Of a stretch of 64,000 nucleotides of DNA, positions 4,669-55,508 are shown piece after piece. Position numbers and translations under genes: made by a program. Numbering within the stretch: the first letter of the stretch is position 1; every line of letters starts with the position of its first letter. The stretch comes from Chloroflexota bacterium (GTDB lineage: Bacteria > Chloroflexota > UBA6077 > SHYK01), in assembly GCA_035652535.1 (NCBI GenBank), contig DASRDP010000093.1, forward strand, positions 1 to 64,000, read 5' to 3'. The notes under the pieces are model-generated. The model ran no database searches. It had not been told where the DNA came from and worked only from the letters and a program-made list of their open reading frames with translations.

Positions 4669-4678
4669 TCCGGGCCGC

Positions 4679-11390: not shown

Positions 11391-11670
11391 GGAGAGACGC
11401 TGGTTCGCACCGTCGATGCAGAGGGGGACGAGCACACAGTCGAATCCCGCGCGCGCCGCGTTCTCGCGCACGCGGGGCCCAGCGGCGGTCGCGCTCCGCC
11501 AGCGAATAGCCTGGCCAGATCTCGCCGCTATCGTCGCCCGTGGAGGCCCAAGGATATCACGGCCCCGTCTGTGCATACACTTGGAAAGACGCCCCGCACA
11601 GCCGGCCGTTGACCGATCGCCGTCTTCCATGGTTCAATGACCCACTTCGAGCGAAACGAGGAGCGTGCAG

Positions 11671-12861
11671 ATGCTGACACAGGAAGAGAACGAGCGGCTT
11701 TCGCGCGTCGGACCGGGTACGCCAGTCGGCACCCTCTTGCGCCGGTACTGGCACCCCGTCGCACCGACCGCTGACCTCGACCAGGATCCGGTCCGCCCGG
11801 TGCGGCTCCTCGGCGAGGACCTCGTGCTCTACCGCGACGAGTCCGGGAAGCTCGGCCTCGTCGCAGAGCGCTGCGCGCACCGGGGCATCTCTCTCGCGTA
11901 TGGCATCCCCCAGGGCAACGGCCTCCGCTGCGCCTACCACGGCTGGACCTACGACGAGCAGGGGCACGTCGTCGATATGCCGTTCGAGCCGGCGTGCCTC
12001 CCCCTGAAGATCACGGCGTACCCGGTTGAGGAGCTGGGCGGGCTCGTGTGGACCTATATGGGGCCGGACCCGGCCCCGCTGCTTCCCCGCTGGGACATGC
12101 TGGTTCGGACCGACTTCAACAAAGAGATGCGCATCACCCCGCTCACCTGCAACTGGCTCCAGTGCATGGACAACTCCCTCGACCCCATTCACTTCGAGCA
12201 CCTCCACGGCGTCTACGGCAACTACACCATGAAGCGCATGGGGAAGCCGCCCATGCTGAACCCCGCGCGCCACGTCAAGATCGACTTCGATCTCTGGGAG
12301 TACGGCATCTACAAGCGGCGGCTCCTGGAAGGACGGCCGGAAGACGACCCGGACTGGACCGTTGGGCACCCGATCCTCTTCCCCTACATCCTCGCCCAGG
12401 GCGGGCCCGATCGCGGCAACTTCCAGATCCGCGTCCCCACCGACGATACCCACACGATGCACATCTGCCTCAACGGCTGGGCGCCGAGGAACGGCGAGGA
12501 GCTGCGCTCCGAGGTCCCCGTCGTCTACGATCCGCTCGTATACGACGACCTCGGCCGCGTCGTCGCCACGCACATCGTCCGCCAGGACGAGATGGCGTGG
12601 GTCGGTCAGGGCGGCATCACCGACCGGAGCACCGAGCACCTCGCCACGTCGGATCGGGGCATCCTCCTCTACCGCAAGCTGCTCCTCGAAAACATCGAGA
12701 AGGTGGAGCGCGGGGAGGACCCCATGGGCGTCATCCGCGATCCCGCCAGGAACACGCCGATGATCTCCATTGAGCGCGGCACCCGCTACGCCGCGTTCAA
12801 GACCGGCATCGACGAGGCGAACTACGGCGGGGTCCGCGACACCGTCGCGATGGCGCGCTGA
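11671..12861 (+). CDS. Rieske aromatic ring-hydroxylating oxygenase, alpha subunit (tandem-family copy 2)
   Basis: This 396-residue protein is a close paralogue of the products of 7644, 13012 and 16719. The [2Fe-2S] ligands are C68, H70, C87 and H90. The catalytic iron ligands are D171, H174 and H179 in DNSLDPIHFEHLHG, and the C-terminal block is [18 protein letters not shown]. The ATG at 11671 is preferred over a GTG two codons earlier because GAGGAG lies 7 bases before it and the resulting MLTQEEN matches the family start. It stands alone on the plus strand, downstream of the pseudogene region and 150 bases before the next paralogue. Most differences from its neighbours fall in the substrate-pocket half, so the copies may differ in substrate. 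Confidence 0.93.
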   Translation: MLTQEENERLSRVGPGTPVGTLLRRYWHPVAPTADLDQDPVRPVRLLGEDLVLYRDESGKLGLVAERCAHRGISLAYGIPQGNGLRCAYHGWTYDEQGHVVDMPFEPACLPLKITAYPVEELGGLVWTYMGPDPAPLLPRWDMLVRTDFNKEMRITPLTCNWLQCMDNSLDPIHFEHLHGVYGNYTMKRMGKPPMLNPARHVKIDFDLWEYGIYKRRLLEGRPEDDPDWTVGHPILFPYILAQGGPDRGNFQIRVPTDDTHTMHICLNGWAPRNGEELRSEVPVVYDPLVYDDLGRVVATHIVRQDEMAWVGQGGITDRSTEHLATSDRGILLYRKLLLENIEKVERGEDPMGVIRDPARNTPMISIERGTRYAAFKTGIDEANYGGVRDTVAMAR

Positions 12862-13011: not shown

Positions 13012-14205
13012 ATGATTACGCAGGAAATGAACGACCGCCTGACCCACGTAGGCCCCGGAACGCCCATGGGCACCCTGCTCCGCTGCTACTGGCACCCGGT
13101 TGGCACGACCGCGGATCTCGACAAGGACCCTGTCCGTCCCGTTCGGCTGCTGGGGGAGGATCTCGTCCTGTACCGAGACGAGGCGGGGAAGCTCGGCCTC
13201 GTCGGCGAGCGATGCGCGCATCGCGGCATCTCCCTCGCCTACGGCATCCCGCAGACCAACGGCCTGCGCTGCGCCTACCACGGCTGGACGTACGACGAGC
13301 AGGGCCACGTCGTGGACATGCCCTTCGAGCCGGCCTGCCTACCGCTCAAGATCACCGCGTACCCAGTCGAGGAGCTCATGGGCATCGTCTGGGCCTACAT
13401 GGGCCCGCCCGAGAAGAAGCCCCTCCTCCCGCGCTGGGACATCCTGGTCCGCGACGATTTCAACAAATGGATCCGAATCACCCAGCTCGACTGCAACTGG
13501 CTCCAGTGCATGGACAACTCCCTTGACCCCACGCACTTCGAGCATCTGCACGGCGTCTACGGAAACTACGTCATGAAGAAGCTGGGCAGGCCGCCGATGA
13601 TGACGCCGGCGCGCCACGTCAAGATCGAGTTCGACGTCTTCGATTACGGGATCTACAAGCGGCGCTTGCTGGAGGGCGAGCCGGAGGACAACACCGACTG
13701 GACCGTCGGCCACCCCATCCTGTTCCCGTACATCCTGGCCCAGGGCGGCCCCAACCAGATGAGCTTCCAGATCCGCGTCCCAGCGGACGACACGCACACG
13801 ACGCACGTGGTCGTGATGGCCCAGCGGCCTAAGGACGGCGAAGCCGTGGATCCGGAAGTCAAGGTCACCCACGCAACCCTCGATCGCGACGAGCTGGGCC
13901 GCATTTTTGCACCCCAGATCGTCGTGCAGGACGAGATGGCGTGGATCGGGCAGGGGCCGATCACGGACCGCACGGCCGAGCACCTGGCGACGGGCGATAA
14001 GGGCATCCTCCTGTACCGGCAGCTTCTCCTCGACAACATCGCGAAGGCCGAGCGCGGCGAGGACCCGATGGGCGTCATCCGCGACCCGGAGATCAACGAG
14101 CCGTTCATCCAGATTCGGCGGGGAAGCACGTACGCCGCGTTCCGCGCAGGAGTCGCCGACGAGGACTTCGGCGGCGTGCGCGAGCCGGCCGGCGCGGCGG
14201 GGTAG
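13012..14205 (+). CDS. Rieske aromatic ring-hydroxylating oxygenase, alpha subunit (tandem-family copy 3)
   Basis: This 397-residue protein has [2Fe-2S] ligands C68, H70, C87 and H90. The iron ligands are D172, H175 and H180, shifted by one because GPPEKKPLLPR carries an extra residue relative to the other copies. The C-terminal block is QGPITDRTAEHLATGDKGI, with TGDKG where the others have TSDRG. The ATG follows GAGGAGATGGGAAGACC. It is followed after only 6 bases by a phosphoglycerate mutase gene, which looks cotranscribed. The arrangement suggests recent tandem duplication with divergence in the catalytic half. Confidence 0.93.
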   Translation: MITQEMNDRLTHVGPGTPMGTLLRCYWHPVGTTADLDKDPVRPVRLLGEDLVLYRDEAGKLGLVGERCAHRGISLAYGIPQTNGLRCAYHGWTYDEQGHVVDMPFEPACLPLKITAYPVEELMGIVWAYMGPPEKKPLLPRWDILVRDDFNKWIRITQLDCNWLQCMDNSLDPTHFEHLHGVYGNYVMKKLGRPPMMTPARHVKIEFDVFDYGIYKRRLLEGEPEDNTDWTVGHPILFPYILAQGGPNQMSFQIRVPADDTHTTHVVVMAQRPKDGEAVDPEVKVTHATLDRDELGRIFAPQIVVQDEMAWIGQGPITDRTAEHLATGDKGILLYRQLLLDNIAKAERGEDPMGVIRDPEINEPFIQIRRGSTYAAFRAGVADEDFGGVREPAGAAG

Positions 14206-16718: not shown

Positions 16719-17906
16719 ATGCTGACGAAGGAAGAGCACGAACGACTCGCGCGCGTGGGACCTGGCACCCCCATGGGAGAGCTGCTCCGGCGCTACTGGC
16801 ACCCAGTGGCCGCGACGGCCGACCTGGACCAGGACCCGGTGCGTCCGGTCCGCCTGCTGGGCGAGAATCTGGTCCTGTACCGGGATGAGACGGGAACGAT
16901 CGGGCTGGTGGCGGAGCGATGCGCACATCGCGGCATCTCCCTCGCCTACGGCATCCCGCAGACGAAGGGCCTGCGTTGCGCCTACCACGGCTGGATCTAC
17001 GACGAGCAGGGCCACGTGGTGGACATGCCCTTCGAGCCCGCGTGCCTTCCCCTGAAGATCCAGGCGTACCGAGTCCAGGAGCTCGGCGGCCTGGTGTTCG
17101 CCTACCTCGGGCCGGAGCCGGCGCCCCTTTTGCCCCGCTATGATCTCTTCGTCCGCGACGACTTGAACCGAAACGTCGAGATCACGATGTTGCCCTGCAA
17201 CTGGCTCCAGTGTATGGACAACTCCCTTGACCCGATCCACTTCGAGCACCTTCACGGCGTCTACGGCAACTACGTGATGAAGCGGACCGGCAAGCCGCCG
17301 ATGCTCAACCCGGCCCGCCACCTGAAGATCGACTTCGACGTGTTCGAGTACGGCATCATCAAGCGTCGACTGGTGGAGGGAGAGCCCGAGGACTGCGACG
17401 ACTGGACGACGGGCCACCCCATCCTCTTCCCCAACATCCTGTCTGTCGGGGACGTCCGTCGGCCGAACTACCAGATCCGTGTCCCGGTCGACGACACTCA
17501 CACCCTCCACGTGCGATACCAGGGCATCCTCCGAAGGGACGGCGTCGACCCGCGCGATGACGTGCCCGTCCAGCATCTCTCGCTCTTCGACGAGGACGGC
17601 CACCTCAAGGGCTGGGCCGACGACATCCCCTCGCAGGACATGCTCGCGTGGGTTGGGCAGGGGCCCGTGTCCGATCGGACCGCCGAGCACCTGGCGACGT
17701 CGGACCGAGGCGTGGCGCTCTACCATAAGCTGCTTTTCGACAACATCGAGCGCATCGAGCGGGGCGAGGAGCCGATGGCCGTGGTGCGCGACGAGCGGAA
17801 GAACTTCCCCATGATCCAGCTTCCCCGCGAGAATCGCGGCTACCGCGCCTTCTTCACGGTGAACGGGGAGTACCGCGAGCCGGTCCGACCCGGCGCCCGC
17901 GGATAG
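16719..17906 (+). CDS. Rieske aromatic ring-hydroxylating oxygenase, alpha subunit (tandem-family copy 4)
   Basis: This 395-residue protein is the fourth of the closely similar set. The [2Fe-2S] ligands are C68, H70, C87 and H90. The catalytic iron ligands are D171, H174 and H179 in DNSLDPIHFEHLHG, and the C-terminal block is QGPVSDRTAEHLATSDRG. The ATG follows GGGGGCGACGA, and the MLTKEEH start fits the family. The gene is downstream of a binding lipoprotein on the same strand. It converges with purU, with 3 bases between their stops. All iron ligands are intact, so it should be active if supplied with electrons. Confidence 0.93.
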   Translation: MLTKEEHERLARVGPGTPMGELLRRYWHPVAATADLDQDPVRPVRLLGENLVLYRDETGTIGLVAERCAHRGISLAYGIPQTKGLRCAYHGWIYDEQGHVVDMPFEPACLPLKIQAYRVQELGGLVFAYLGPEPAPLLPRYDLFVRDDLNRNVEITMLPCNWLQCMDNSLDPIHFEHLHGVYGNYVMKRTGKPPMLNPARHLKIDFDVFEYGIIKRRLVEGEPEDCDDWTTGHPILFPNILSVGDVRRPNYQIRVPVDDTHTLHVRYQGILRRDGVDPRDDVPVQHLSLFDEDGHLKGWADDIPSQDMLAWVGQGPVSDRTAEHLATSDRGVALYHKLLFDNIERIERGEEPMAVVRDERKNFPMIQLPRENRGYRAFFTVNGEYREPVRPGARG

Positions 17907-17909
17907 CGT

Positions 17910-18782
17910 TCAATCGAAGACGACCGTCCGGCGCCCGTGGACGACCACGCGGTCTTCTGCATGGGCGCGAACCGCGCGTGCCAGCACGATGCGCTCCACG
18001 TCCCTGCCTTTCCGGATCAGATCATCGGCGGTATCTCGATGCGTCACGCGAATGACGTCCTGATCGATGATCGGCCCGTCGTCCAGCACGTTGGTCGCGT
18101 AGTGGCTGGTCGCGCCGATCATCTTCACTCCGCGCTCGAGCGCCTGATGGTACGCTCGCGCACCCGCGAACGCAGGGAGGAATCCATGGTGGATATTGAT
18201 GACGCGCAGCGGAAATGCGGCCAGAAACGTCGGGGTCAGCACCTGCATGTAGCGCGCGAGCACGACGAAGTCGCAGCCCGCCTCGCGCAAGTGCCGAAGC
18301 TGTTCCGCCTCCGCTTCGGATTTCGAATCCGGGGTAACGGGCACCACACGAAAAGGCACGTTGAAGGCGGCCGCGATCGGCTCAAGGTCCGCATGGTTGC
18401 TCAGGATCAAAGGGACACGAACGGCAAGCTCACCGATGCGATGCCGCGCGAGAAGATCGATGAGGCAATGGTCCAGTCGCGAGACCATGATCCCCATCGA
18501 AGGTGTTTCGGACGTGGCGCGAATGCGCCAGCGCATCCCAAACCGGTCCGCTACCTCCGCGAACGGCTTTCCGAACTCAGCGAGGCTGATGTCCAGCCGC
18601 GTGGCATCGAACCTGACGCGCATGAAGAACGTTTCATCCGAGCGATCGGTGTGCTGCTGGGCATCGAGAATGTTGGCCCCGTGCCCGAAAAGAAAGCCCG
18701 AGATTGCGGCGACGATCCCCTGCCGGTCGGGACAAACGACCGTCAAGATACCGGTGTCCGGGCGTTCTACTGCCGGCGCCAC
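17910..18782 (-). CDS. purU: Formyltetrahydrofolate deformylase
   Basis: This 290-residue cytoplasmic enzyme hydrolyses 10-formyl-tetrahydrofolate to formate and tetrahydrofolate, balancing the C1 pool. An N-terminal ACT domain (about 10-90, starting [18 protein letters not shown]) senses amino acids. The C-terminal formyltransferase fold has catalytic N196 and H198 in [11 protein letters not shown] and D235 in [15 protein letters not shown]. coli PurU has HHSFLP where this has HHGFLP, a small departure next to the active site. The start is GTG with only a weak upstream purine run. It lies 46 bases downstream of a Rieske gene on the same strand. Rieske O-demethylases release formaldehyde, so a C1-handling neighbour makes sense, but the link is inferred. 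Confidence 0.93.
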
Positions 18783-18828: not shown

Positions 18829-20007
18829 CTACCGCCGACCGGCAGCCGACGGCGGGAGCATGCCCACTTCGACGATCAATGAGCCCGTCAGGTTTGTATC
18901 GATCATCGGGTGACTCGGATCGCGGATGACACCCAGCGGGTCCAGCCCCGCCTGCACGCGCTCGATGTTCTCGCGCATCAGCTTGCGGAGCATGACGATG
19001 CCGCGGTCTGACGTCGCCAGCCGCTCGGTCGTGCGATCGAAGATGGGCCCCTGAGTCTCCCATGCCATGTAATCCTGCGCGTCCACCCGATCCATGCGAT
19101 ACCGGGCATGCGGGTGCCGCTGATCGGCGGGAGCCTTGTGCGAATCCTGCGGCACGAACTCGGGCTCTTCATCTTCGGGCACCAGCGAGCCGTCTTCCGT
19201 CGGGATGAACCGGATCTCATAGATCCACATGGCCGTGTCGTCCCGAGGGACGCGCACCTCCATGCCGTTCCCCTGGCGGAGGATGTTGGGGAAGATCAAC
19301 GGATGCTCGTCGACCCGCCCGTCCGTATACACTCGCCGCTTCATGATCCCGTACTCGGTCTGGTAGAAGTCGAAGCTGACCACTTCGTCGGTGAAGCCGC
19401 GCGTCGTGCTGCGCGCGCGACGGCCGCCCGCCACGTTGGCGCCCGCGTCCTGGTGCAGGATCTGGAGGTGCGCGGGATCAACCGAGTTCTCCATCGCCTG
19501 GAAGTAGTTCGCATCGACCTGGCCGCGGAGCTGCACCGTATGGTGGCCATCCCGGCGGACGAGGATGTCGTACGGCGGGATAACTGGGGCTGGGAGCGGC
19601 CCGAGATACCCCCAGTAGAGGCCCGCCAGCCGCCGTACCGGGTACGCCTTCGCCTTGACCGTCAGATAGAGCTTGCTGTCCGCCGGCTCGGCCGGCGTCT
19701 CCAAGCAGTTCCCCTTCGCGTCGTAGAGCCAGCCATGGTACGCGCAGGCGATCCCGCGCTCCTCGACGCGGCCGTACAGCAGCGACGCGCCCCGGTGGAC
19801 GCAATGATCCTGGATGAGGCCCACGTTCCCGCTCTTGTCCTTGAAGAGCACGAGGTCTTCACCGAGCACGCGCGTGAAGTGCGTTGGCCTTTCATCCGTC
19901 AGCTCGTGACAGAAGGCGACCGGGTACCAGTACCGGCGAAGCAGCTCGCCCGCTGGCGTTCCCGGTCCAACCCGCGTCAACAGCTCGTTCTCTTCCCGCG
20001 TGAGCAC
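18829..20007 (-). CDS. Rieske aromatic ring-hydroxylating oxygenase, alpha subunit
   Basis: This 392-residue oxygenase is paired in sequence with the one at 20920. The [2Fe-2S] ligands are C69, H71, C88 and H91 in DHCVHRG and CAYHGW. The iron ligands are D177, H180 and H185 in [13 protein letters not shown], and the C-terminal block is [20 protein letters not shown] Gly/Arg-rich insert, [12 protein letters not shown], follows the iron motif. The GTG at 20007 is supported by GGAGG 5 bases upstream. It sits at the end of a minus-strand set running from the lipoprotein gene at 25431 toward purU. A repeat-containing gap of 140 bases separates it from the class II aldolase gene. Confidence 0.93.
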
Positions 20008-20055
20008 GGCAACCTCCGGCTTTGAAGTGTGCTGTAAGACCGCTCGCTCCGAGTC

Positions 20056-20106
20056 AGTCGAAGGGCGCTGCGTGCTTCGACTGGCCTGCCCCGAGCGAAG
20101 TCGAAG
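20056..20106. repeat. REP-like interspersed repeat with AGTCGAAG/CTTCGACT arms
   Basis: Three 8-base arms, AGTCGAAG at 20056-20063, CTTCGACT at 20075-20082 and AGTCGAAG at 20099-20106, can form alternative hairpins. They are followed by GGGCTCAGCACGAACGG. This sequence type is a widespread intergenic repeat of high-GC bacterial genomes. It lies between the aldolase gene and the Rieske gene downstream of it and may act as a transcript stabiliser or attenuator. Confidence 0.55.
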
Positions 20107-20147
20107 GGCTCAGCACGAACGGTTTACGCACGTTCTTCAGCATCGTG

Positions 20148-20915
20148 TCAGAAATCGGCGGGGATCCCGACGGAGTCCTCCACGAGCTTCACGTAGTGGG
20201 CCCACACCCACTCCTCGCCGCGCGGGATATTCGCGCGCGTCGGCGCGCGTCCATCGACGTATCCGAACGCCTCCAGGTCCTCCTGGGAGATGCTCGGGGC
20301 CTCGCGGCCCAGGTGCGCAATCTCGAGGATCATCTCCGCGAGGCGCTCCAGACGCAGCGCCAGAAGCGTCGCCGCCTCCACACTCGGCCCGACCGCGGTG
20401 ATGCCGTGGCCCTTCATGAGGCAGCAGTCCCGCGGACCCATGGCAGCGACGAGATCCTGGCCCAGCTCCTGCCGATTGATCAGCACGGACCTAGGGTAGA
20501 CGGGCAGCCCCTTCGCGGCGATACCCATGGCGCCGGGATCGTACGCGCCGAAGATCGGCTTGAACTCGAGCCCGAGGATGCCGCACAGCACCGCCGCGTG
20601 CGGGTGCGCGTGGACCACGGCCGCGACCTCAGGGCGAGCCTTATAGTTCTCGCCGTGGATCGGCAGCTCCAGCGGGGCCATGAAGTCCGCTCCGAGCCCG
20701 TCGCCCTTCCCGTCGAAATCCAGCCGACGGATCTGCTGGACGTCGGTGTACATCAAGCCCCGCTCGTTGCCGCCTCGGCACCGAATGAACATCTCGTTCG
20801 TGCCCGGAATCCGGGCGCTCACGTGGCCGGTGATGTCCTTCACCAGCCCCTCCATGCCCAAGATGCGCATGGAGATCGCGACCTTCTGGCGAAGCAGGTC
20901 GAGAGAGTCAGGCAC
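20148..20915 (-). CDS. Class II aldolase/adducin-family protein
   Basis: This 255-residue zinc-dependent aldolase or decarboxylase belongs to the L-fuculose-phosphate aldolase fold. Zinc ligands are H102 and H104 in VHAHPHA and H170 in LMKGHGITAVG. The N-terminal phosphate/oxyanion region is DITGHVSARIPGTN. The start is 4 bases from the stop of the upstream Rieske gene, so the two are almost certainly cotranscribed. Flanked by two Rieske oxygenases and downstream of RidA and a LigB dioxygenase, it may cleave an open-chain ring-fission product such as a hydroxy-oxo acid. Members of this family also act on sugar phosphates, so the substrate is open. Confidence 0.87.
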   Translation of the reverse strand: MPDSLDLLRQKVAISMRILGMEGLVKDITGHVSARIPGTNEMFIRCRGGNERGLMYTDVQQIRRLDFDGKGDGLGADFMAPLELPIHGENYKARPEVAAVVHAHPHAAVLCGILGLEFKPIFGAYDPGAMGIAAKGLPVYPRSVLINRQELGQDLVAAMGPRDCCLMKGHGITAVGPSVEAATLLALRLERLAEMILEIAHLGREAPSISQEDLEAFGYVDGRAPTRANIPRGEEWVWAHYVKLVEDSVGIPADF

Positions 20916-20919
20916 CCCG

Positions 20920-22101
20920 CTACGCCTGGGCCGTGGTGGCCAACTGGCCGCTTCGGCCCCAGCCCTCCCGTACCTCGACGAGCGACTCCTGCAGCTTCGT
21001 GTCGATCAACCCGTGGTTTGGATCGCGGATCACGCCCTTCGGGTCGAGCCCCATCTGCACGCGCTCGATCTCGCGCTTCAGGACCTCGCGCAGCAAGACG
21101 ATTCCCCGGTCGGTCGTCGAGAGCCGCTCGATGCTGCGATCGGCGATCGGGCCCTGCGTCTCCCACGCCATATGGTCCTGCGCCTGGACGTCGAGGGACA
21201 TATCGAACCAGGTGTAGGGGTGGAGCTGGTCGGCAGGCTGCTTGTAGGAGTTGATGAAGGTAACCGGCGGGTCCCCCTCCTCCACGATGCTGCCATCCGG
21301 GCTGGGCTTGAACCGGACGAAGAAGATCTTGGTGTGGGTGTCGTCGATGGGAACGCGGATCTGCGTGGCGTCGCCCTGGCGCAGGATGTTCGGAAAGATA
21401 ACCGGGTGCTCGTCCACGTGCCCGTTCTTATAAGTCCGCTTCTTGATTAATCCGTAGTCGACTTCGTAGAACTCGAACTTCTCCACGTCGTCCGTGAAGC
21501 CGCGGGTCGTGCTGGCGGGCGTCCGGCCGCGGAACGCGATCGTCTGGTGGAGGATCTGGAGGTGAGCCGGGTCCATGGAGTTCTCCATGGGCTGCAGCCA
21601 GTTGGCGTCGAGGCGCGGCTGCAGATACAGCTCGCGGTGGCCATCCTTGCGCGCCCACACGTCGTACTGTGGGATCTCCGGCGCCGGCAGCGGCCCCAGG
21701 TACGCCCAGTACATCCCGATGAACTTCTTCACCGGGTACGCCTTCGCCTTCACCGTCAGATAGAACTTGCTGTCCGCCGGCTCGGCCGGGGTTTCCAGGC
21801 AGTTCCCCTTCGTGTCGTAGAGCCAGCCATGGTACGCGCAGGCGATCCCCCGCTCCTCGACGCGCCCGTAGAGCATGGAAGCGCCGCGGTGGACGCAATG
21901 GTCCTGCATGAGGCCCACGTTGCCGCTCTTGTCCTTGAAGAGCACCAGATCCTCGCCCAAGATCCGCACGAACTGGGTGGGTTTCTCGTCCGTCAGCTCC
22001 TGCACGTAGCCTACAGGCATCCAATAGCGTCGAAGCAGCTCGCCTGCCGGGGTACCCGGCCCGACGCGCGTCAGGAACTCATTTTCTTCCTTCGTGAGCA
22101 T
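20920..22101 (-). CDS. Rieske aromatic ring-hydroxylating oxygenase, alpha subunit
   Basis: This 393-residue paralogue of the 18829 product has [2Fe-2S] ligands C69, H71, C88 and H91. The iron ligands are D177, H180 and H185 in [13 protein letters not shown], and the C-terminal block is QGPIADRSIERLSTTDRGI. The ATG at 22101 follows GAGGAGGAACTG, an excellent ribosome binding site. The two paralogues bracket the aldolase gene, as if a Rieske-aldolase unit had gained a duplicate Rieske copy. The catalytic-domain difference TIAFRGRTPASTT versus the Gly/Arg-rich insert of its partner is the clearest local divergence. Confidence 0.93.
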   Translation of the reverse strand: MLTKEENEFLTRVGPGTPAGELLRRYWMPVGYVQELTDEKPTQFVRILGEDLVLFKDKSGNVGLMQDHCVHRGASMLYGRVEERGIACAYHGWLYDTKGNCLETPAEPADSKFYLTVKAKAYPVKKFIGMYWAYLGPLPAPEIPQYDVWARKDGHRELYLQPRLDANWLQPMENSMDPAHLQILHQTIAFRGRTPASTTRGFTDDVEKFEFYEVDYGLIKKRTYKNGHVDEHPVIFPNILRQGDATQIRVPIDDTHTKIFFVRFKPSPDGSIVEEGDPPVTFINSYKQPADQLHPYTWFDMSLDVQAQDHMAWETQGPIADRSIERLSTTDRGIVLLREVLKREIERVQMGLDPKGVIRDPNHGLIDTKLQESLVEVREGWGRSGQLATTAQA

Positions 22102-22182
22102 CAGTTCCTCCTCATGAGCTTCACTGGCCCATTATCGCACAGCATTTTGGACGAAGGGGACGAGCGGTCCTCTCGCGCGTCA

Positions 22183-22566
22183 TTAGGAGGGCAGTATGGC
22201 CACGATCTCGGCCTGGAAGAAACCCTGGCGTACGTCCGTCGTCAGCGCGTGGCGCGCGGGGCGGCTGTGCTCGTCGGGGAACATCTTCTGCCACTCGGGG
22301 TCGATGTACTTGCGCAAGTCCGGGTCCTTCATCAGCAGGCGAACGTGGATGATGTCGTCCGGCGAGCCGCCGGCGATCTCCATGAATTGCTTGATGTTCT
22401 TGAACATGCAGACAGCCTGCTCAGCCGGGTCGCTGGGCATCACGTTCTTCTCCTGGTCCCTACCAGCGATGCCGGATGAGTACACGACGTTGCCGATCTT
22501 CGATCCCATGGGGATCGGCGCGCCGTGCGCCATGCCGGGAAGGTTAATGGATTCGCGCTTCGCCAT
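22183..22566 (-). CDS. RidA/YjgF-family protein
   Basis: This 127-residue protein belongs to the RidA/L-PSP family, whose best-known members hydrolyse reactive enamines and imines. The N-terminal part has the YSSGIAGRDQ segment, the middle has AEQAVCMFKNIKQFMEIAGG, and a VRLLMKD strand follows. The ATG at 22566 is chosen because GGAGGACTC precedes it; an upstream ATG lacks family similarity. The typical catalytic arginine region near the C-terminus is replaced by PARHALTTDVRQGFFQAEIVA, so it may be a non-canonical member. It lies between the LigB dioxygenase and a Rieske gene. Some catabolic-operon relatives instead act on aminomuconate-type intermediates. Confidence 0.82.
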   Translation of the reverse strand: MAKRESINLPGMAHGAPIPMGSKIGNVVYSSGIAGRDQEKNVMPSDPAEQAVCMFKNIKQFMEIAGGSPDDIIHVRLLMKDPDLRKYIDPEWQKMFPDEHSRPARHALTTDVRQGFFQAEIVAILPS

Positions 22567-22656
22567 GAGTCCTCCAACGTCAATCAAATCTGGAGATCGG
22601 GCAACCATGGGCGCGGACGAACGTCATCATACTACGGCCACGAAGGGCGACTCGTC

Positions 22657-23643
22657 CTACTTCCAATATGCGAAGGTCATCCCGCACCCCGTCGCGGCCG
22701 GTGAGCGGTAAGTCGGCACATAGTCGACCAGCGTCATGTCGAGCCCCTCGAGCGCTGCCCCCGCGATGATCCAGTTCCGAATCTCTGATGTCCCGTGGAC
22801 CATCTTCTCAACCGGCAGGGCACGGAGGCGATCCGGGTCCCGCTCCATCAGCCCATCGATGGTGCGCCGGTCCAGATCCTCGTCGATGATCGTGTGGCTG
22901 AGACCGCCGGACGCGATGACGGCGACGCGCGCGTTCGAGTCCCAGCGCTCGATGGCTGCGCGGACGGACTGGCCCAGCGCATAGCAGCGCTTCGGTGTGG
23001 GCGCGTTCGGCGGATAAAACGTGTTGACCATAAAGGGGACCATCGGAATGTCGCCCTCGGGCAGGAGCCGTCGATAGACGAAGCTGAAAGCGTGCCCGAT
23101 CCCGACACCGTCGCGCATATGGTTCGACCGCGCGATGTCGAACCCGTCGTCGCACAGCTCGCGGAGCAGATGGTCGGCGAGAGCCGGATCGGCGCGGAAC
23201 TCTTTGCCCTCTTCGGCTTGGTCGCGGCCGCCCTCCACCGAGCGCCATTCCGTGCTCGTGCTGACCGGCGGCGCGCCCGCCCGCCTTCCGCGGTGGATGG
23301 CCATTGTCTCGCCATTGTAGATGCACAGCATCGGCATGAGGTCGTCGAGGAACTGCTCGTGCTGATCATCGCCGAAGACGAGCATAACGTCCGGGCGCGT
23401 ATCGCGCAGCAGCTCCCCAAGGGCGCCGATGGCGCGCTGGCATGCCTCATCGCGCTCCCGGAACTTCTCGATCGTCAGCTCTTTTTCGAAGCCGGGCCGT
23501 GTCTGCCGAACACGCTCGGCCAGCTCCCGATAGTTCATCCGCGAGTCGCCTTCGTCCTTCGCCTGAAGAACCCGCCACTGTTCGCCGGGGATCCCGAGCT
23601 GCGGACTGTGCGACGTCCCAATGCCGAGAACGACCTCTGCCAT
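22657..23643 (-). CDS. Class III (LigB-type) extradiol ring-cleavage dioxygenase, second copy
   Basis: This 328-residue paralogue of the protein at 9785 has iron histidine H12 in GTSHSPQL, the GDDQHEQFLDDLMP segment and GGLSHTIIDEDLDRR. An insert of Gly/Arg/Ala after MAIHRG distinguishes the two copies. The ATG follows AGGAGGTGAATT, one of the strongest ribosome binding sites in the window. It lies between a binding-lipoprotein gene (70 bases upstream) and the RidA gene on the same strand. With the two Rieske genes, the RidA gene and the aldolase gene downstream, it forms a set able in principle to oxidise and cleave an aromatic ring. Confidence 0.88.
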   Translation of the reverse strand: MAEVVLGIGTSHSPQLGIPGEQWRVLQAKDEGDSRMNYRELAERVRQTRPGFEKELTIEKFRERDEACQRAIGALGELLRDTRPDVMLVFGDDQHEQFLDDLMPMLCIYNGETMAIHRGRRAGAPPVSTSTEWRSVEGGRDQAEEGKEFRADPALADHLLRELCDDGFDIARSNHMRDGVGIGHAFSFVYRRLLPEGDIPMVPFMVNTFYPPNAPTPKRCYALGQSVRAAIERWDSNARVAVIASGGLSHTIIDEDLDRRTIDGLMERDPDRLRALPVEKMVHGTSEIRNWIIAGAALEGLDMTLVDYVPTYRSPAATGCGMTFAYWK

Positions 23644-23712
23644 AATTCACCTCCTGTGAGCCCTCGCGATGCGCATCCAGTGTAGCGCGGGTCCGTCGGC
23701 CGCGCGAGCGCG

Positions 23713-25431
23713 CTATCCCACCCACGTCCAGCGGTAGATGTCCCAGCTGATATTGCCTTTCGGTGAAACCAGCCGCGGACCGGTGAGGCCGGACACGTAG
23801 GCCATGACACCGGGGTCGAAATAGAGCGGAATCTCCGGCAGATCCTCGGTAAAGATTCGCGCCATCTCGACGACCTGGCGCCTGCGCTCGGTGGGATCGA
23901 GCGTCGTGTTGAAGGCCTCGACCAAGCGGTCGTACTCCGGGTTGATCCATGCCACCCGATTTCGACCCACCCAACGGTTTTCGGGGCCCGGGATATTCGC
24001 ACTGCTGTAGGCCCGGAGCAGGTCTTCGCCCAGAGGACCGCTCGAAGAGAAGACGCCGGTAAAAGTGGAGCGCACCTCGCCGTCCTGTGCCAGCGCGGCC
24101 GGGTTTACGGACTCGCGGAAGTCGAAGCCTGCATCGCGCCACCCGGCCGCCAAGATGGACATTTCCTCCTCGTATTGCGCTCCGCCGTTTACCTTCAGCT
24201 CGGCTGAGAACCGACCCTCGCTCAGATTCGCGTACGTGCCATCGGGCGCCCTGCTCCACCCAGCCTGGCTCATGAGCGCTTCGCTCTGTTTGGGGTCAAA
24301 CGGATACTTACGAATGCTTCGCTCCACGTTGTCAATGTTCGGATCCGTAGGCGGAATCATGCTGCCGGTGACGATGCCCTGACCTTCGAACAACGCGTCG
24401 TTCAGCGCGGCCTTGTCGATCGCGTGCGCCAGCGCACGCCGCACCCGGACGTCGAGGAGCGCGCGCGGGCTCGCGAGCTCCGGTCGCAGTTGGACCTGCG
24501 CGGCGCGCCAGAGGGTCGGCGTCAGGAGGACGGACCCTGCCGAGCGAGGCGTCCACTCCCGGCGCAGAAGCGACGCCTGGCTGAACTGGAGCGAATCGTC
24601 GGCTGCGATGTTGACCTCGCCCGCGAGCAGGTTCGCCACCACGGTGTTCGGATCGCTGTTCCAGCGCACCTGTATGCGGCCAATCAATGGGCGACCGAGC
24701 GCATACCCGTCGAAAGCGGAAGCCTCAATGGACGAGCCGGGCTCCCAGCGCTCCAGGCGGTACGGGCCCAGACCGACGTAGCGGCTGGTCCAGAATGGGC
24801 TTGCCAGAAAGGTTTCCGGCGAGTCCTGCTGGAAGCTTTGCTCGAGGAGATGGCGCGGGAGGACCGGAAAATCGGTTGCCTGCAGCGAGCCGGCGTCGGG
24901 ATACGGCCGTTTCCATTCGATTTCGACGGTGTGATCATCGGTCGCACGAACATTGTCGATGAGCCCGAACGGGAGGGACGCAGCCTGTCCCATCGCCGGA
25001 GTCGAATACACCTGCCAGGTGAACACGACGTCGTCAGCAGAGAGCCGGGTCCCGTCGTGCCACCTGAGGTCGGGCTTGAGCACATACGTCGTCTGCATGT
25101 GCCCGTCGGCGGACACGCGCCACGCATCCGTGTCGAGCGCCGGCACGCGCTCAACGAGATCCGGCTGAGGATCGCCATGCTGGTCGCGGATGACGAACCC
25201 GGCATTGAAAAGCCGTACGAGTGTCGCCGTCGTGACCCCGCCCGTGCGTACGAGCGGCCGCGACGACAGGGTGGGCGGCTCGACGCGGATCATCATGACC
25301 AAGGCTCGCCCCGAGGCGCCCGGCTGGGACGGGGACGGCGACCCCAATGAGCGGGATGGCACAGCAGGCTGCGCGCACGCCGTGAGGGCAAGCAGCGCAA
25401 GAACAGTCGTGGCGAATGGGTTCATCGTCAT
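23713..25431 (-). CDS. ABC transporter substrate-binding lipoprotein, family 5
   Basis: This 572-residue exported lipoprotein has lipobox LTAC at residues 16-19. The family segment DLRWHDGTRLSADDVVFTWQ is present, and the ending WDIYRWTWVG is a variant of the window's common terminus. The start is placed at ATG 25431 (MTMNPF) because upstream codons give no signal peptide; an ATG two codons later is equally possible. The ribosome binding site is weak. It heads the minus-strand set containing LigB dioxygenase, RidA, Rieske oxygenases and aldolase, which suggests that it captures their substrate. The 280-base gap upstream holds no gene I can support. Confidence 0.9.
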   Translation of the reverse strand: MTMNPFATTVLALLALTACAQPAVPSRSLGSPSPSQPGASGRALVMMIRVEPPTLSSRPLVRTGGVTTATLVRLFNAGFVIRDQHGDPQPDLVERVPALDTDAWRVSADGHMQTTYVLKPDLRWHDGTRLSADDVVFTWQVYSTPAMGQAASLPFGLIDNVRATDDHTVEIEWKRPYPDAGSLQATDFPVLPRHLLEQSFQQDSPETFLASPFWTSRYVGLGPYRLERWEPGSSIEASAFDGYALGRPLIGRIQVRWNSDPNTVVANLLAGEVNIAADDSLQFSQASLLRREWTPRSAGSVLLTPTLWRAAQVQLRPELASPRALLDVRVRRALAHAIDKAALNDALFEGQGIVTGSMIPPTDPNIDNVERSIRKYPFDPKQSEALMSQAGWSRAPDGTYANLSEGRFSAELKVNGGAQYEEEMSILAAGWRDAGFDFRESVNPAALAQDGEVRSTFTGVFSSSGPLGEDLLRAYSSANIPGPENRWVGRNRVAWINPEYDRLVEAFNTTLDPTERRRQVVEMARIFTEDLPEIPLYFDPGVMAYVSGLTGPRLVSPKGNISWDIYRWTWVG

Positions 25432-25711: not shown

Positions 25712-27514
25712 CTAATCGAGGTCCCAGAGGTATGCGTTGCGCGTGTACGAGCCGTACGGCGCCCCAGCCCCAGCGCCGCCGGCGAAATCGGCGAAGGCCT
25801 GCACGCCCTTGCGCATGCCGATGTTGTCCGCCTCGAACATCGTCACGAGGTAGGGCATCTCCGCGACGATGAAGTCGCTGATCGCTCGAACGGCTTGCCG
25901 CTGGTCCCCGGGCTTCATGCTGTGGTAGTAGGCGTCCACGAGACGGACGGCCCGGGAATCGTCGTAGCCGGCCCGATTGGCACCCGCCCAGCGCGTCTCC
26001 GGGCCCGAGGGGTCCTTGAGACGGCCAAAGGTCGAGTCGTCGTAGTTGGCCGTCGTCTCCCATCCGGGGTAGCTGGCGCGATACTGATTGTCCCGCGTGA
26101 ATGCCGCCGGCACGATGGTCTCCTCCACCTCGAGCCCGACGCGCCGCCAGTAGTCGGCGATGGCGGCGATCTCCTTGTCCGAGCCGGGCGTGGACCAGAT
26201 GGATGTCTGGAACCGACGTCCATCCGCGTTTCTCAGCAATCCGTCCGGCCCGGGCGTCCAGCCTGCCTCGGCCAGGAGGGTTTTCGCTCGGTCCGGATCG
26301 AACGCGAATGGCTTGAGCCCATCGCGCACGGCCTCGTAGTTGCGGTCCTCGGGGGGCAGGATCGAGGTCGCCGCCAGCTCGGCATGGCCGTCCTGTAGCG
26401 CGGCGGATAGCGCGGGCCGGTCCAGGGCAACGTACAGGGCTTGCCGCACCGTTGGGTCGAGGTTCGCCGGCTCCTTCTGGAACTGCGCTCGATACTGAGG
26501 GATCAACATCCGCACGTACCCGGTTGTCAGGAGCACCGTTCCCTGGCCCGACTTGTCCCATTGGTCCTTTAACTGAAATCCGACGTCGGGGCTCATGGCG
26601 AGGTCCATGAACACGTCCACCGCGCCCGCGAGCAGGTTGGCCAGGAGCGTATTCTCGTCGCCGAAGGTCTTGAGGTAGACGACGTCGATCTTCGGTCGAC
26701 CAAGGAAGTAGTTCTCGTACGCCTCGAACTTCAGGCCCTCTCCCGGATCAAACGAGGTGAGCCGGAACGGTCCAAGGTTGACGTAGCCGCTCGTGAAGTA
26801 GGGCTGGTTGATGAAGTCGTCGGCGTTTTTTGTGCTCACGTATTGGTCGTAGCTGTCCTGGAGCAGGTGCTGGGGATAGGGCCAGAAGAGTCGAAGCCCC
26901 AGGGAGTCGGCCAGGTAGTACGGGCTGCTGAAGACGAACACGAACGTCTGGTCGTCCGGCGCCTCGGTCGTGGTCACGAGCTTCATGGCGTCACGATTCA
27001 CGAAGGGCAGGCCTGGGTCGGTGTTCACCTGATAGGAGAAGGCGAGGTCGCGCGACGTGAACGGCGCGCCGTCTTGCCACGTCACACCCGTCCGCAGGTG
27101 GTACGTCGCCCGCATGGTGCCGTCGGGCTGGACCACGATGGAGCCATCGTCGAAGGACGGCGCGCGCTCGGCAAGCCGGCCCACCGGAGTCCGCGAGCTG
27201 GTGTCGGAGGTCACCAGACCCTGCGAATGCAGCTCACCCGCGGACATCCACCCGCCGGCCGTGGTCGTCGTTCCTGCGAGCCCGAAGGCCCGGACGGTGC
27301 TGGTGATGCCGACGGTCAGGGTCTTCACGCGGTGCGAGCCCGGCGTCGCAGGCGCCACACCTTCGCCGGGGCGCTGGGGGGATGGCGCGCCCGTGGTACA
27401 CGCCGTCATCAGGAGCGCGACGGCTACGAGAAGTGTGTGGCGTCCAATGAGCTGCCCGTGCGACGGAGGCGCGCACCCCGCTCGCCTCGCCCACCGCGAG
27501 GAGCCCAGCGCCAC
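25712..27514 (-). CDS. ABC transporter substrate-binding lipoprotein, family 5, start uncertain
   Basis: This binding lipoprotein of about 600 residues has lipobox LMTAC. Family segments are GVTWQDGAPFTSRDLAFSYQ and the late VDAYYHSMKPGDQRQAV. Its end, NAYLWDLD, departs from the common terminus, and it is the most divergent member here. No ATG lies close to the signal peptide. GTG codons sit inside a 39-base tandem repeat (27476-27578), and the one at 27514 is taken as start, giving a 25-residue basic leader before the hydrophobic core. Repeat copy number could therefore change the leader length. The upstream Rieske gene ends at 27685 on the same strand. Confidence 0.85.
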   Translation of the reverse strand: MALGSSRWARRAGCAPPSHGQLIGRHTLLVAVALLMTACTTGAPSPQRPGEGVAPATPGSHRVKTLTVGITSTVRAFGLAGTTTTAGGWMSAGELHSQGLVTSDTSSRTPVGRLAERAPSFDDGSIVVQPDGTMRATYHLRTGVTWQDGAPFTSRDLAFSYQVNTDPGLPFVNRDAMKLVTTTEAPDDQTFVFVFSSPYYLADSLGLRLFWPYPQHLLQDSYDQYVSTKNADDFINQPYFTSGYVNLGPFRLTSFDPGEGLKFEAYENYFLGRPKIDVVYLKTFGDENTLLANLLAGAVDVFMDLAMSPDVGFQLKDQWDKSGQGTVLLTTGYVRMLIPQYRAQFQKEPANLDPTVRQALYVALDRPALSAALQDGHAELAATSILPPEDRNYEAVRDGLKPFAFDPDRAKTLLAEAGWTPGPDGLLRNADGRRFQTSIWSTPGSDKEIAAIADYWRRVGLEVEETIVPAAFTRDNQYRASYPGWETTANYDDSTFGRLKDPSGPETRWAGANRAGYDDSRAVRLVDAYYHSMKPGDQRQAVRAISDFIVAEMPYLVTMFEADNIGMRKGVQAFADFAGGAGAGAPYGSYTRNAYLWDLD

Positions 27515-27684: not shown

Positions 27685-28833
27685 TCATACGCGCGCCCGA
27701 CCCACGCTCAACCGCCTCGTGCGTCGCCATTCCTTCAAGGGGCGCCCTTCGGCCAGGTTCCGCAACTCGCGCTGCCACAGGTTGCGCAGCATGATGACGG
27801 TCACATCCTCATAGCCCTGGTGCCACTGGCTGCGATCCGGAAGCGCCCCCTGTCCGACCTGAGAGACGTAGTCCTGCATATTGAACAGCCGGTCGGGATG
27901 CTTGTGCCGGTCCTCAATGTCCTCGATCCTCATCTCACCGCGCAGCACCGCTTCGGCGATTTCGGCATAGGGAGGGAGCGTTGCTGCCTCCGCCGCCCGC
28001 GTCGCCCGCCGCTCCAAATAGGATGGGCGCGCTTCTTTGGGCATATGGGTGAAGTTGACGCCAAATGTCGTGCAGTGCTCGTCGTCAATGGGCACGCGGA
28101 ATGCGAGAGCTTCACGCCACGCCTCCGGACCCAGCTCGGGCGCGGTCCGCGTCGCGTAGCTGCCCAGCGGCATGAGGTAGTGCGTTTGGGACTCGGGCCA
28201 GAGGGTGGCGCCCTCTGGGAGGGTCACGAACGTCGTGTACCCATATTCGGTCTCCTCGCACCGGACCCGCGGGATCCCGATGCGCCCGGCCGCGATGTAC
28301 GACTCGCGATGGACCCAGGCGCCGTGGAAGGGATCGTTCTCCAGCGAACTGAAGACGTTCATCGGCCAGGGCGTTGGGTACGTGTAGTTCTCGCGGATTC
28401 CCTCTTCATCGTCCTCGAACTCCGGGAAACGCGGAAGGTCGGGCGGCTCCCCTTCGCCCAGGTACGCGAACACGAGGCCGAGGTAGTCTTGGGCCGGATA
28501 CGAGCGAATTCGGATCCGGCCGCAAAATGGCTCGGGCTCGGCGGGCTGCTCGGTGCATTGTCCGTCGGGACCGTACTTCCAGCCGTGATAGAAGCAGCGG
28601 ATCTGGTCTCCCTCGACCCAGCCGGTCGAGAGCTGCGTACCTCGATGGGCGCAGCGGAACGCGACCGCGTGAGCGTCACCGCCCTCACCGCGGTAGAGGG
28701 TGAAGTCCTCGCCGGCGATACGGACGGGCTTGGCTCGCCCGGCGATCAAATCCTCCGAGCGATGGATGGGGATCCAGAAACGCCGCAGGTAGCGGCCCGC
28801 CAGCGTCCCTGGCCCGGTCCGCCAGAATTCCAT
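27685..28833 (-). CDS. Rieske aromatic ring-hydroxylating oxygenase, alpha subunit
   Basis: This 382-residue protein forms a distinct pair with the one at 44894. The [2Fe-2S] ligands are C61, H63, C80 and H83, and the iron ligands are D167, H170 and H175 in ENDPFHGAWVHRE. The C-terminal block differs from the other groups, ending with SQVGQGALPDRSQWHQGYED and then VTVIMLRNLWQREL. The ATG at 28833 follows AGGAG with 5-base spacing; an ATG at 28869 is an alternative with a poorer site. The downstream neighbour on the same strand is a binding lipoprotein. The region upstream is a 209-base divergent gap to the LLM flavoprotein gene. Confidence 0.92.
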   Translation of the reverse strand: MEFWRTGPGTLAGRYLRRFWIPIHRSEDLIAGRAKPVRIAGEDFTLYRGEGGDAHAVAFRCAHRGTQLSTGWVEGDQIRCFYHGWKYGPDGQCTEQPAEPEPFCGRIRIRSYPAQDYLGLVFAYLGEGEPPDLPRFPEFEDDEEGIRENYTYPTPWPMNVFSSLENDPFHGAWVHRESYIAAGRIGIPRVRCEETEYGYTTFVTLPEGATLWPESQTHYLMPLGSYATRTAPELGPEAWREALAFRVPIDDEHCTTFGVNFTHMPKEARPSYLERRATRAAEAATLPPYAEIAEAVLRGEMRIEDIEDRHKHPDRLFNMQDYVSQVGQGALPDRSQWHQGYEDVTVIMLRNLWQRELRNLAEGRPLKEWRRTRRLSVGRARV

Positions 28834-29042
28834 CCATTCTCCTGTGGCCGCGCTGTGCTCGTTGGGCATCCGACACACCCCGTGAACTGGTTTCTGTCCC
28901 GCGCCCCGGGCAGGAGCGGGTGCTTCTCGCCGTAATAATAGTCGCGGCGACCTCGAGCCGAGGGGTCGAGTGGCTGCTCGACCGACGGTCCCACCAGCAG
29001 GCAGGCCACGCGCGGTAGAATCGCCGCACAAGGAGGCGGTGC

Positions 29043-32899: not shown

Positions 32900-34651
32900 T
32901 CAGTGGGTGTGCGGGTGATCATGGTCGTGGTGATGGTCGTGATCGTGATCGTGATCGTGATCGTGATGATGATCGTGGTCGTGCTCGTGGTCGTGCGCAT
33001 GGGCGAGGGCACCCGCCCCGCGGACGAGGCCGGACTCGCGCTCGCGGGCCGTGCTGAATACGAGAGACTTCACCACGACCGGCACCGCGTGCACGTCCTC
33101 CAGCTCCTCGCCCAGATCGATGAAGTCCAGATCGCCGAGGGTCACCTCGTCGATGGAGACGATGTCGTAGTCCGGCAGCAGCTCGCGGGTCAGCAGGCTG
33201 CCGACCGCGCCCCCGATGTCCGTGTCGAACACGATGGTGAGGGGGATTTTCGCCGCGATGGTGTTCGGCATGGCGGCCACGATCGCCTCGGCGAGGGTCT
33301 TGACCCGGTCGTACGAGGGCTCCATTCGCCAGCGGAAGGAGAGGGCGACGGGTCGATCCCCCTCCTCGATGTCGAGGCGCTGCATCGCCTGCTCGATGGC
33401 CACCCTGGCCGACTCGACCGTATAGGTCCCATCGGGCATGACGGGCGCCACGACCTGGAGGTTTCGATGCGGCAGGAGCTCGGGCCGCGTGATGTAGATG
33501 GTGCTGCCGCTGACCTGCAGCGTGTATTGGCCAGCGCCGATGACGGTCGCGCGGATCATCTGCTCCGAGGTGTCCATGGGCACGCCGAGGCGTACGACGC
33601 GGTCGGCGACGGCCTTCCCCAGAAGGATGCCGAGATCGCCAAAGTTTCGCGGCTCGTTGCCGTACACGTACTCAGAGACTCCACCTGAGAAGCTCACGGA
33701 GTCAATGGGCCCCGTGTACGTGAGCGGCCCAGTGATCATGAGGCGATTGGCCAGCCGGCCGAGCGGGCGCCGCTCCGCCACGTTGTAGAGGCACTCGGCG
33801 AGCAGCTCGGCCATGGCCTTCTGGTGCTCGGGTGAGAGGGGCGCGCCCACGACGAGGGGGATGCCCAGCTCGTCAGCGATGATCTGCCCTGCCAGCTCGA
33901 TGCGACTCACCAGGCCCTTTTCATCCATCGCCACGAGCCGCGCACCGACGTTGATGGCCGCCGTCTCGAGGACCTCGCCGTCGCGACAGATGGCGAGCTT
34001 GGCGGTGCCGCCGCCCATGTCGATGTTCATCACCGTGTGCGACTGTCCATCGCGCCGGGCGGAGCGCGCGCAGGCGCCCGAGCCGTAGGCGGCCATGACC
34101 GCCTCCAGGTTCGGGCCGGCCACGGCGCACACGAACTTGCCCGCGTGCTCGGCGAACAACGCGGAGATCGCCTCGGCGTTGCTCTTCTTCGCCGCCTCGC
34201 CGGTGAAGATCGTGGCGCCCGTCTCCACGTCGTCGACGGTCATCTGGGCGTCCTTGTACACACCCTGGATGAAGCGCTCAAGCTCTTCTGTGTCGATCGT
34301 CGTTTCGTCGACGTACGGGGTGAGGAGGATGGGCGAGCGGAAGGTGATGCCTCGCTCCACGACCTTGAAGCGGCTCGAGAGGGCGATGCCCTGCCGCTCG
34401 AGGACGAGGCGGGAAAACATCAGGTGGGAGGTGGAGGACCCGACGTCGATGCCCACGCTGGTGAGGGTGATCCGGTTCCCCGCCTCCTCTGGCGTGAGGA
34501 TCACCATCTCCTCTTCGCCGGGATGGGTATGGAAGAAGGGGTCGTCGTGGATGTGCCCGAACATCCCCTCGGCATGGTCATGGGCGCCCCAGTGCCCGTG
34601 CTCGTGCATCTGGTCGGCCGTTGTCGGGTTTCCGGCTTCCGTTGGTTCCAT
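32900..34651 (-). CDS. EutA-like ASKHA ATPase with His-rich N-terminus and poly-(His-Asp) C-terminal tail
   Basis: This 583-residue protein is a paralogue of the protein at 4679. ASKHA motifs are TSVGIDVGSSTSHLMFSRL near the N-terminus, MNIDMGGGTAKLAICRDG in the middle and FSGGVSEYVYG after it. Residues 16-43 carry nine histidines. The final 34 residues alternate His with Asp, with 19 histidines in total. Such tails are known in nickel/zinc/cobalt handling proteins (HypB, CooJ, ZnuA-type loops), so metal binding is likely. EutA itself lacks such a tail. The ATG follows GAGGAGT. It is divergent from a Rieske gene and cotranscribed with a binding lipoprotein. With no ammonia-lyase genes present, reactivation or metal loading of another metalloenzyme is the likelier role. 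Confidence 0.87.
   Translation of the reverse strand: MEPTEAGNPTTADQMHEHGHWGAHDHAEGMFGHIHDDPFFHTHPGEEEMVILTPEEAGNRITLTSVGIDVGSSTSHLMFSRLVLERQGIALSSRFKVVERGITFRSPILLTPYVDETTIDTEELERFIQGVYKDAQMTVDDVETGATIFTGEAAKKSNAEAISALFAEHAGKFVCAVAGPNLEAVMAAYGSGACARSARRDGQSHTVMNIDMGGGTAKLAICRDGEVLETAAINVGARLVAMDEKGLVSRIELAGQIIADELGIPLVVGAPLSPEHQKAMAELLAECLYNVAERRPLGRLANRLMITGPLTYTGPIDSVSFSGGVSEYVYGNEPRNFGDLGILLGKAVADRVVRLGVPMDTSEQMIRATVIGAGQYTLQVSGSTIYITRPELLPHRNLQVVAPVMPDGTYTVESARVAIEQAMQRLDIEEGDRPVALSFRWRMEPSYDRVKTLAEAIVAAMPNTIAAKIPLTIVFDTDIGGAVGSLLTRELLPDYDIVSIDEVTLGDLDFIDLGEELEDVHAVPVVVKSLVFSTARERESGLVRGAGALAHAHDHEHDHDHHHDHDHDHDHDHHHDHDHPHTH
32905..33004. repeat. Low-complexity GATCGT-rich tract encoding the His-Asp tail
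   Basis: On the plus strand the sequence is dominated by repeats of GATCGT and GGTCGT, including at least four consecutive GATCGT units near 32940-32965. On the minus strand these read as alternating CAC/CAT and GAT/GAC codons. Slippage in such a tract would change tail length in steps of two codons without frameshift. Confidence 0.8.
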
Positions 34652-36952: not shown

Positions 36953-37021
36953 CGTTGCCGTCAGGATGTGAGGCTGGCGCGCCACGGGACCCGGAGAGCG
37001 CGAGCGAATGGAGGACCGGAC

Positions 37022-55395: not shown

Positions 55396-55508
55396 GATCG
55401 ATCCTCCGAACATTCTGTTCCGCCGCCGCCGTTTGGGAGCCAGACAGCCCGAGCAGCGGCGCGCCGGTGGGGTGGTCTAACCGATGATACAAGAATGAGA
55501 CCCGGCAG

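Follow-up and report, generated by a model that had tools for sequence, protein, structure and literature searches.

Gene content and organization of the minus-strand set

The window analyzed here is the whole stretch of 64,000 nucleotides comprising positions 1 to 64,000 of contig DASRDP010000093.1 from GCA_035652535.1, a Chloroflexota metagenome-assembled genome (MAG). Seven minus-strand genes between positions 17910 and 25431 form a set for which an initial annotation proposed capture, hydroxylation or demethylation, ring opening and aldol cleavage of an aromatic compound. Pfam and NCBIfam matches, together with the coordinates, bear out the seven genes in the order claimed. They are given below in the order of transcription, followed by two upstream genes that may extend the set.

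23713-25431, minus strand: SBP_bac_5 family-5 solute-binding lipoprotein (PF00496, 188 bits; lipobox-like LTAC after a hydrophobic stretch)
22657-23643, minus strand: LigB/DesB-fold protein (PF02900, 71 bits; AlphaFold model; motif alignment)
22183-22608, minus strand: RidA-family protein (PF01042, 47 bits)
20920-22101, minus strand: Rieske oxygenase, phthalate 4,5-dioxygenase-like, single-subunit type (PF00355 and PF19301; best solved relatives 7fhr and 7fjl)
20148-20915, minus strand: PhtC-type aromatic decarboxylase (Aldolase_II; NF053537)
18829-20007, minus strand: second Rieske oxygenase (PF00355 and PF19301; 65% identity to the 20920-22101 Rieske oxygenase)
17910-18782, minus strand: formyltetrahydrofolate deformylase PurU (TIGR00655, 358 bits, cut-off 286)
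25712-27445, minus strand, start not fixed: further SBP_bac_5 gene, possible upstream extension (PF00496, 189 bits)
27685-28869, minus strand, start proposed from translation: further Rieske oxygenase, possible upstream extension (PF00355, 73.5 bits)

The lipoprotein gene has an in-frame Met exactly at 25431, and codon-position GC agrees with coding in all seven frames. The gaps measured from the lipoprotein gene to PurU are, in turn, 69, 48, 81, 4, 140 and 46 bases, as expected from the short spacing (4 to about 140 bases) reported previously. The minus-strand run reaches beyond 25431, with an SBP_bac_5 gene and then a Rieske gene occupying 25712 to approximately 28869. Both Rieske genes of the set carry the CxH...CxxH cluster motif and the D/E-x2-H-x3-5-H iron motif. 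Scans for promoters (none found, 1.6 expected by shuffling) and terminators (four found, 5.0 expected by shuffling) were uninformative on transcription, and Rfam and tRNA scans of the whole window gave no match.

A PhtC-type decarboxylase in place of an aldolase

The product of 20148-20915 had been labeled a class II aldolase and credited with chain cleavage. It scores 226.5 bits against NF053537 (3,4-dihydroxyphthalate decarboxylase, PhtC), for which the curated NCBI cut-off is 200, and falls far under the cut-offs of the other class II aldolase-type NCBIfam models listed. These curated cut-offs rule out the aldolase name in favor of a PhtC-type decarboxylase and leave aldol chain cleavage unsupported; ring decarboxylation is therefore the likelier reaction. 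The best solved-structure match is 2z7b, Mlr6791 (42.7 bits), which we take to be a pyridine-dicarboxylate decarboxylase.

Against the same model, the comparators from Arthrobacter keyseri and Peribacillus score 403.6 and 299.9 bits, respectively, while copies on two other contigs of the MAG, C59 (190.2 bits) and C36 (143.9 bits), lie under the cut-off. The C36 locus (L110) has, in transcription order, a Gfo gene, a Rieske gene 75% identical to the window gene at 20920 and, after approximately 1.1 kb, the class II aldolase-family gene.

The LigB-fold protein and its metal site

The AlphaFold model of the 22657-23643 product (pLDDT 85.8) finds its best matches in the PDB in DesB (Z 29.8 over 255 residues) and LigAB (Z 28.5). 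The protein shares with these enzymes the fold and the equivalents of His12, His192 and Glu239, which are retained in all 18 LigB sequences of the MAG. It differs from them in having Asp and Gln at the Asn57 and His59 columns, and no LigA partner is found among the seven genes. DesB is reported to bind iron through His12, Asn57, His59 and Glu239, with His192 the probable base and His124 also required (PMC3962378). Columns were assigned from alignments to PDB LigB and MhpB and to the MAG's own canonical-motif LigB. These place Gln94 in the His59 column (His61 of LigB) and Asp92 in the Asn57 column, so that the motif reads GDDQ where LigB and DesB have NDH. Posterior support at Gln94 is moderate in the PDB alignment and pLDDT averages 70 over residues 91-100; the alignments concur. 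This exchange of one LigB iron ligand makes ring opening less secure than initially assumed.

Two nearby histidines deserve mention. The LigB counterpart of DesB His124 faces a non-His residue in the PDB alignment, with an invariant His184 a few residues on, and His95 directly follows Gln94 in 15 of 15 close-clade sequences and is not kept more widely.

The substitution is common among the relatives of this protein. Fourteen of the 18 LigB genes of the MAG have DDQ, the remaining four reading NDH (on contig C126), AEH, SNQ and NPH, with gap placement ambiguous for SNQ (SNQH). Among LigB rows from relatives of the MAG, 13 of 17 have DDQ and the others DDT, DDH, SNPH and SNTH, while all five further LigB proteins, from four plasmid records and a Burkholderiales MAG (L022), have DDQ or NDQ. 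A site so widely kept, alongside His12, His192 and Glu239 and in a genome that also has one canonical NDH LigB, would suit a protein that no longer cleaves rings. Its Asp-Asp-Gln site would then serve, for example, hydrolysis, tautomerization or a different metal, and the module would modify an aromatic or enol acid with no extradiol step. We consider this unlikely: the fold is that of DesB, and the plasmid neighborhoods speak for cleavage. Plasmids of Rhodococcus, Bradyrhizobium, Aminobacter and Polymorphobacter carry homologues with 35-38% identity to the window protein. All four plasmid records examined for these place RraA-family and amidohydrolase genes in the vicinity of LigB; two also have RidA there, and in two an RraA-family gene bears the annotation CHA aldolase. 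Such RraA-family and amidohydrolase neighbors suit gallate or protocatechuate 4,5-cleavage. The 22657-23643 product is probably a dioxygenase of the ring-fission kind whose metal site has changed, and the gene context makes ring cleavage by it plausible.

Two further putative dioxygenases were observed. The sole canonical NDH protein among the 18 (L048, C126:16977-17765) is encoded next to a Gfo-family gene and, judging by its sequence, is possibly a true protocatechuate 4,5-dioxygenase. A BphC-type extradiol dioxygenase gene at window 36968-37918 (plus strand), whose product scores 330 bits to TIGR03213, under the cut-off of 366, adjoins a LigXa-like Rieske gene.

A second cluster and the expansion of Rieske and binding-protein genes

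Contig C124 (L053) holds a reshuffled cluster in which six of the seven genes, representing five of six families with Rieske twice, have counterparts; PurU is the exception. An SBP_bac_5 (SBP5) gene on the minus strand is followed on the plus strand by Rieske, LigB, class II aldolase-family, Rieske, SBP5, RidA, luciferase-like and PrpD genes. Identities to the window proteins are 40% for LigB, 39% for the aldolase-family protein and 44% for RidA, values so low that the two clusters represent an old paralogous module. The C124 cluster supports one functional unit.

The MAG (4.45 Mb) contains 132 PF00355 Rieske matches, 123 of them at E<=1e-12, and at least 133 SBP_bac_5 matches (133 of the 199 candidates scored), along with 19 LigB matches in 18 frames, 13 Aldolase_II and 10 RidA matches. 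With Rieske and SBP5 matches at this density, the seven genes might be independent paralogues brought together only through crowding of the genome with Rieske, SBP5 and LigB genes. We regard this as very improbable. The window grouping is more than chance because six of its seven genes have counterparts that co-locate on C124; the genes also share a strand and short gaps, and adjacency of these families lies far above a simple density expectation. The latter was measured in a sample of 1,001,296 bases in 77 loci chosen around Rieske and LigB genes, against a simple null of uniform placement of which contig ends are not part. An SBP5 gene is found no more than 500 bp away from 41 of the 109 long Rieske genes, in 32 cases on the same strand, versus 3.2 to 4.8 expected, and a Rieske gene lies within 2 kb of LigB in 10 of 18 cases versus 2.0 expected (P 6e-6). 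When a Rieske-like fragment of 177 aa in L054, which lacks the cluster motif, is included, the latter figure becomes 11 of 18 (P 5e-7).

Both Rieske motifs are found in 102 of the 109 long genes, some of the other seven being cut by stretch ends, and a lipobox-like motif in 58 of 83 long SBP5 proteins of the sample. Recent duplication or an assembly artefact behind the Rieske count was rejected for the 109 long genes, as all 5882 pairs are at or below 80% identity; the median nearest-neighbor identity is 62%. In other members of the family, Rieske counts at E<=1e-12 are at least 127 (G001), 89 (G002), 9 (G003) and 0 (G004), and five genomes from other families within the taxonomic order have 46, 1, 8, 2 and 13.

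Several related features lie elsewhere. Four more Rieske genes face the set from the plus strand of the window (7644-8837, 11665-12861, 13012-14205 and 16719-17906), each 64-73% identical to its nearest relative, itself within that series. Three of the genome's four strong EutA-like (PF06277) genes have a Rieske gene at a distance of 55 to 268 bases; they lie at window 4640-6283 (plus strand), at window 32900-34651 (minus strand) and in L120 (contig C66); the fourth is on C124. EutA is the ATP-dependent reactivase of ethanolamine ammonia-lyase. The sample also holds a family of 11 frames with a UbiD-like representative, eight of them near Rieske genes, and 21 cupin features related to window 54298-55413. 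The cupin and UbiD-like families suggest further ring-cleavage and decarboxylation routes.

Comparison with known systems

The pht region of Arthrobacter keyseri 12B plasmid pRE1 likewise encodes a PhtC-family decarboxylase, 37% identical to that of the window, with a Rieske oxygenase. In A. keyseri, genes for a dioxygenase beta subunit, a ferredoxin and an FAD-dependent oxidoreductase stand alongside, whereas the window has single-subunit Rieske genes and a LigB/RidA pair. Among the nine minus-strand genes that were scanned from 17.9 to 29.0 kb, none encodes a Pht-type two-subunit oxygenase, ferredoxin or reductase. The nearest Rieske (42%) and PhtC (53%) pair in the plasmid collection is that of Peribacillus sp. 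R9-11 plasmid pA, where the decarboxylase gene again lies near the Rieske gene. The order there is Rieske, short hypothetical, PhtC-type, Gfo, Pyr_redox_2, Fer4-type ferredoxin and intradiol-type dioxygenase. This plasmid differs from the window in having its own Pyr_redox_2, ferredoxin and intradiol-type genes, and no gene annotated as LigB-like, RidA or PurU appears within the 24.7 kb viewed.

The closest parallel to demethylation followed by ring fission involves VanA1B1, which is presumably a Rieske system. In its syringic acid pathway, Pseudomonas sp. NGC7 is reported to couple O-demethylation, by VanA1B1, to LigB-type ring fission, with formaldehyde disposal (PMC12314914). NGC7 also has components that the window set does not share, namely the VanB1 reductase, the two-subunit dioxygenase MgaAB and GalD/GalB/GalC, and RidA does not occur in the main text of that paper (PMC12314914).

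Many ring-hydroxylating oxygenase paralogues in a Chloroflexota genome are not new. Two reports give up to 62 copies of the COG4638 ring-hydroxylating alpha subunit in SAR202 group VII Chloroflexi (PMC6946804) and 25 ring-cleaving dioxygenases in SAR202-VII-2 (PMC6123686). By comparison, the MAG differs in its 132 Rieske matches (a larger number, obtained by another counting method), in the coupling to orphan SBP5 genes and in the lack of PF00175 and PF14759. Contigs of two relatives at the order level, G011 and G005, are identical over a 3-kb probe to the Chloroflexota MAG records L017 and L018, which places the window in this phylum. The module is probably a variant of this known, SAR202-like oxygenase expansion. 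In the open-licence literature searched we found no report of SBP5-Rieske coupling, of missing reductases or of a comparable expansion, the SAR202 work being nearest.

A proposed pathway and the points against it

We incline, by a narrow margin over the contrary, to the view that these genes form a module for the catabolism of an aromatic acid that is carboxylated and possibly methoxylated. Capture would fall to the orphan binding lipoprotein, with onward transfer to a shared permease. Hydroxylation or O-demethylation would follow, by either or both of the Rieske oxygenases (assigned by family), after which the PhtC-type enzyme would remove a ring carboxylate next to a hydroxyl group. The LigB-fold enzyme, despite its altered metal site, would open the resulting catechol- or gallate-like ring. 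RidA may process a reactive enol or imine product, and PurU, if demethylation occurs, would dispose of one-carbon units with release of formate.

Several observations weigh against this proposal. Gln94 at the iron-ligand column has been described above. None of the seven genes encodes a permease or ATPase in the Pfam scan, so the set alone cannot accomplish uptake. The MAG, which is 98.3% complete, has no match to the FNR-type reductase family PF00175, and none to the GR-type family PF14759, these being the reductase families searched genome-wide. The association of RidA with LigB is patchy: no RidA was detected near 16 of the 18 LigB genes of the MAG, at 11 of 14 genome_contigs loci (the other three have it) or in any of the 16 regions surrounding LigB genes of relatives, several of the regions inspected being short. 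The 16 kb viewed around the second cluster show no PurU, and the decarboxylase-like gene there is broken by an in-frame TAG (L053 around 9053), reflecting either a genuine lesion or a fault of the assembly. The set is nevertheless still best read as first proposed, with capture, a hydroxylating or demethylating step and opening of the ring, and with transport and FNR- or GR-type electron supply missing from it and one LigB ligand replaced.

In the RidA-family protein the Arg of the PAR motif, aligned with 1qu9, is retained; we take it to correspond to R105 of E. coli RidA. The protein lies under the cut-offs of all three NCBIfam RidA-type models listed. Where the association does occur, RidA is near LigB in two places in the MAG, directly follows it in L009 and L022, and stands beside a second LigB in L013. 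The retained Arg could also serve a pathway in which, as initially proposed, the Aldolase_II protein cleaves the ring-fission product and RidA hydrolyzes an imine, as from a nitrogen-containing aromatic like aminophenol. 2-Aminomuconate deaminase is a RidA relative, and fold matches of the LigB-like model include 2-aminophenol 1,6-dioxygenase. Those matches (Z 22.6 to 23.0) rank under DesB, however, and the closest LigB matches are protocatechuate and gallate enzymes; the decarboxylase model was passed where the other class II aldolase-type models listed failed; and the Pfam scan of the seven genes shows no semialdehyde dehydrogenase family. We judge such a pathway quite improbable. Rieske and RidA enzymes are also known from detoxifying and tailoring pathways, and the cluster might have such a role rather than one in growth. 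To this we assign very little probability, as the binding lipoprotein, the PhtC-type decarboxylase and the LigB-fold protein jointly point to degradation.

Electron supply, transport and a possible hub-and-spoke model

PF00175 was matched in 5 of the 16 genomes searched, weakly in G001 and G002 and more strongly in G011, G013 and G015; G005, with 46 Rieske matches, has none. The weak frames of G001 and G002 (271 and 266 aa) are presumably PyrK. The Fer2 domain has 13 matches in the MAG, of which 10 were read; by motif we take nine of these to resemble CoxS-type small subunits and one an NADH-dehydrogenase or hydrogenase subunit. On these motifs, Fer2 domains were rejected as parts of a Rieske reductase for 10 of the 13 matches.

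Pyr_redox_2, GR-type and VanB-type reductases from three plasmids, used as queries, gave no match in the 1.0 Mb sample. An Aminobacter FAD enzyme matched L136:3295-4656, which is an FAD_binding_3 protein and not such a reductase. Two plasmid ferredoxin queries yielded one significant match in the sample, a small Fer4_15/Fer4_13 ferredoxin at L101:16935-17180 in a Rieske-rich stretch; a second match was discarded at E 0.18. This ferredoxin is a candidate for a shared electron carrier.

Transporters were sought in the sample with Aminobacter queries only (two permeases and one ATPase), other permease types not being searched. The permease queries identified one dipeptide-type permease pair, adjoining one SBP5 gene, versus 104 SBP5 features in all, and the ATPase query gave six matches.

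The window set may be one case of many SBP-Rieske front ends that would draw on a common transporter and electron supply. In its full form, this idea amounts to hub-and-spoke catabolism, in which more than 100 Rieske oxygenases, many with their own orphan lipoprotein, would be served by one undescribed ferredoxin/reductase route and by one or few shared permeases, while LigB enzymes with a new His/Gln/Glu (Asp-assisted) metal site would constitute an unrecognized enzyme class. We offer it tentatively, as a speculation somewhat unlikely to hold in all its parts. The Gln-substituted LigB clade spans several phyla, and Bradyrhizobium records name its members extradiol ring-cleavage dioxygenases; whether these annotations are right or need changing depends on whether the proteins do cleave rings. 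In biocatalysis, a functional reductase is often hard to find. If the model is true, the MAG would be a natural repertoire of very many Rieske oxygenases that run, within one genome, on a shared power supply, and it would bear both on biocatalysis and on the turnover of recalcitrant aromatic matter.

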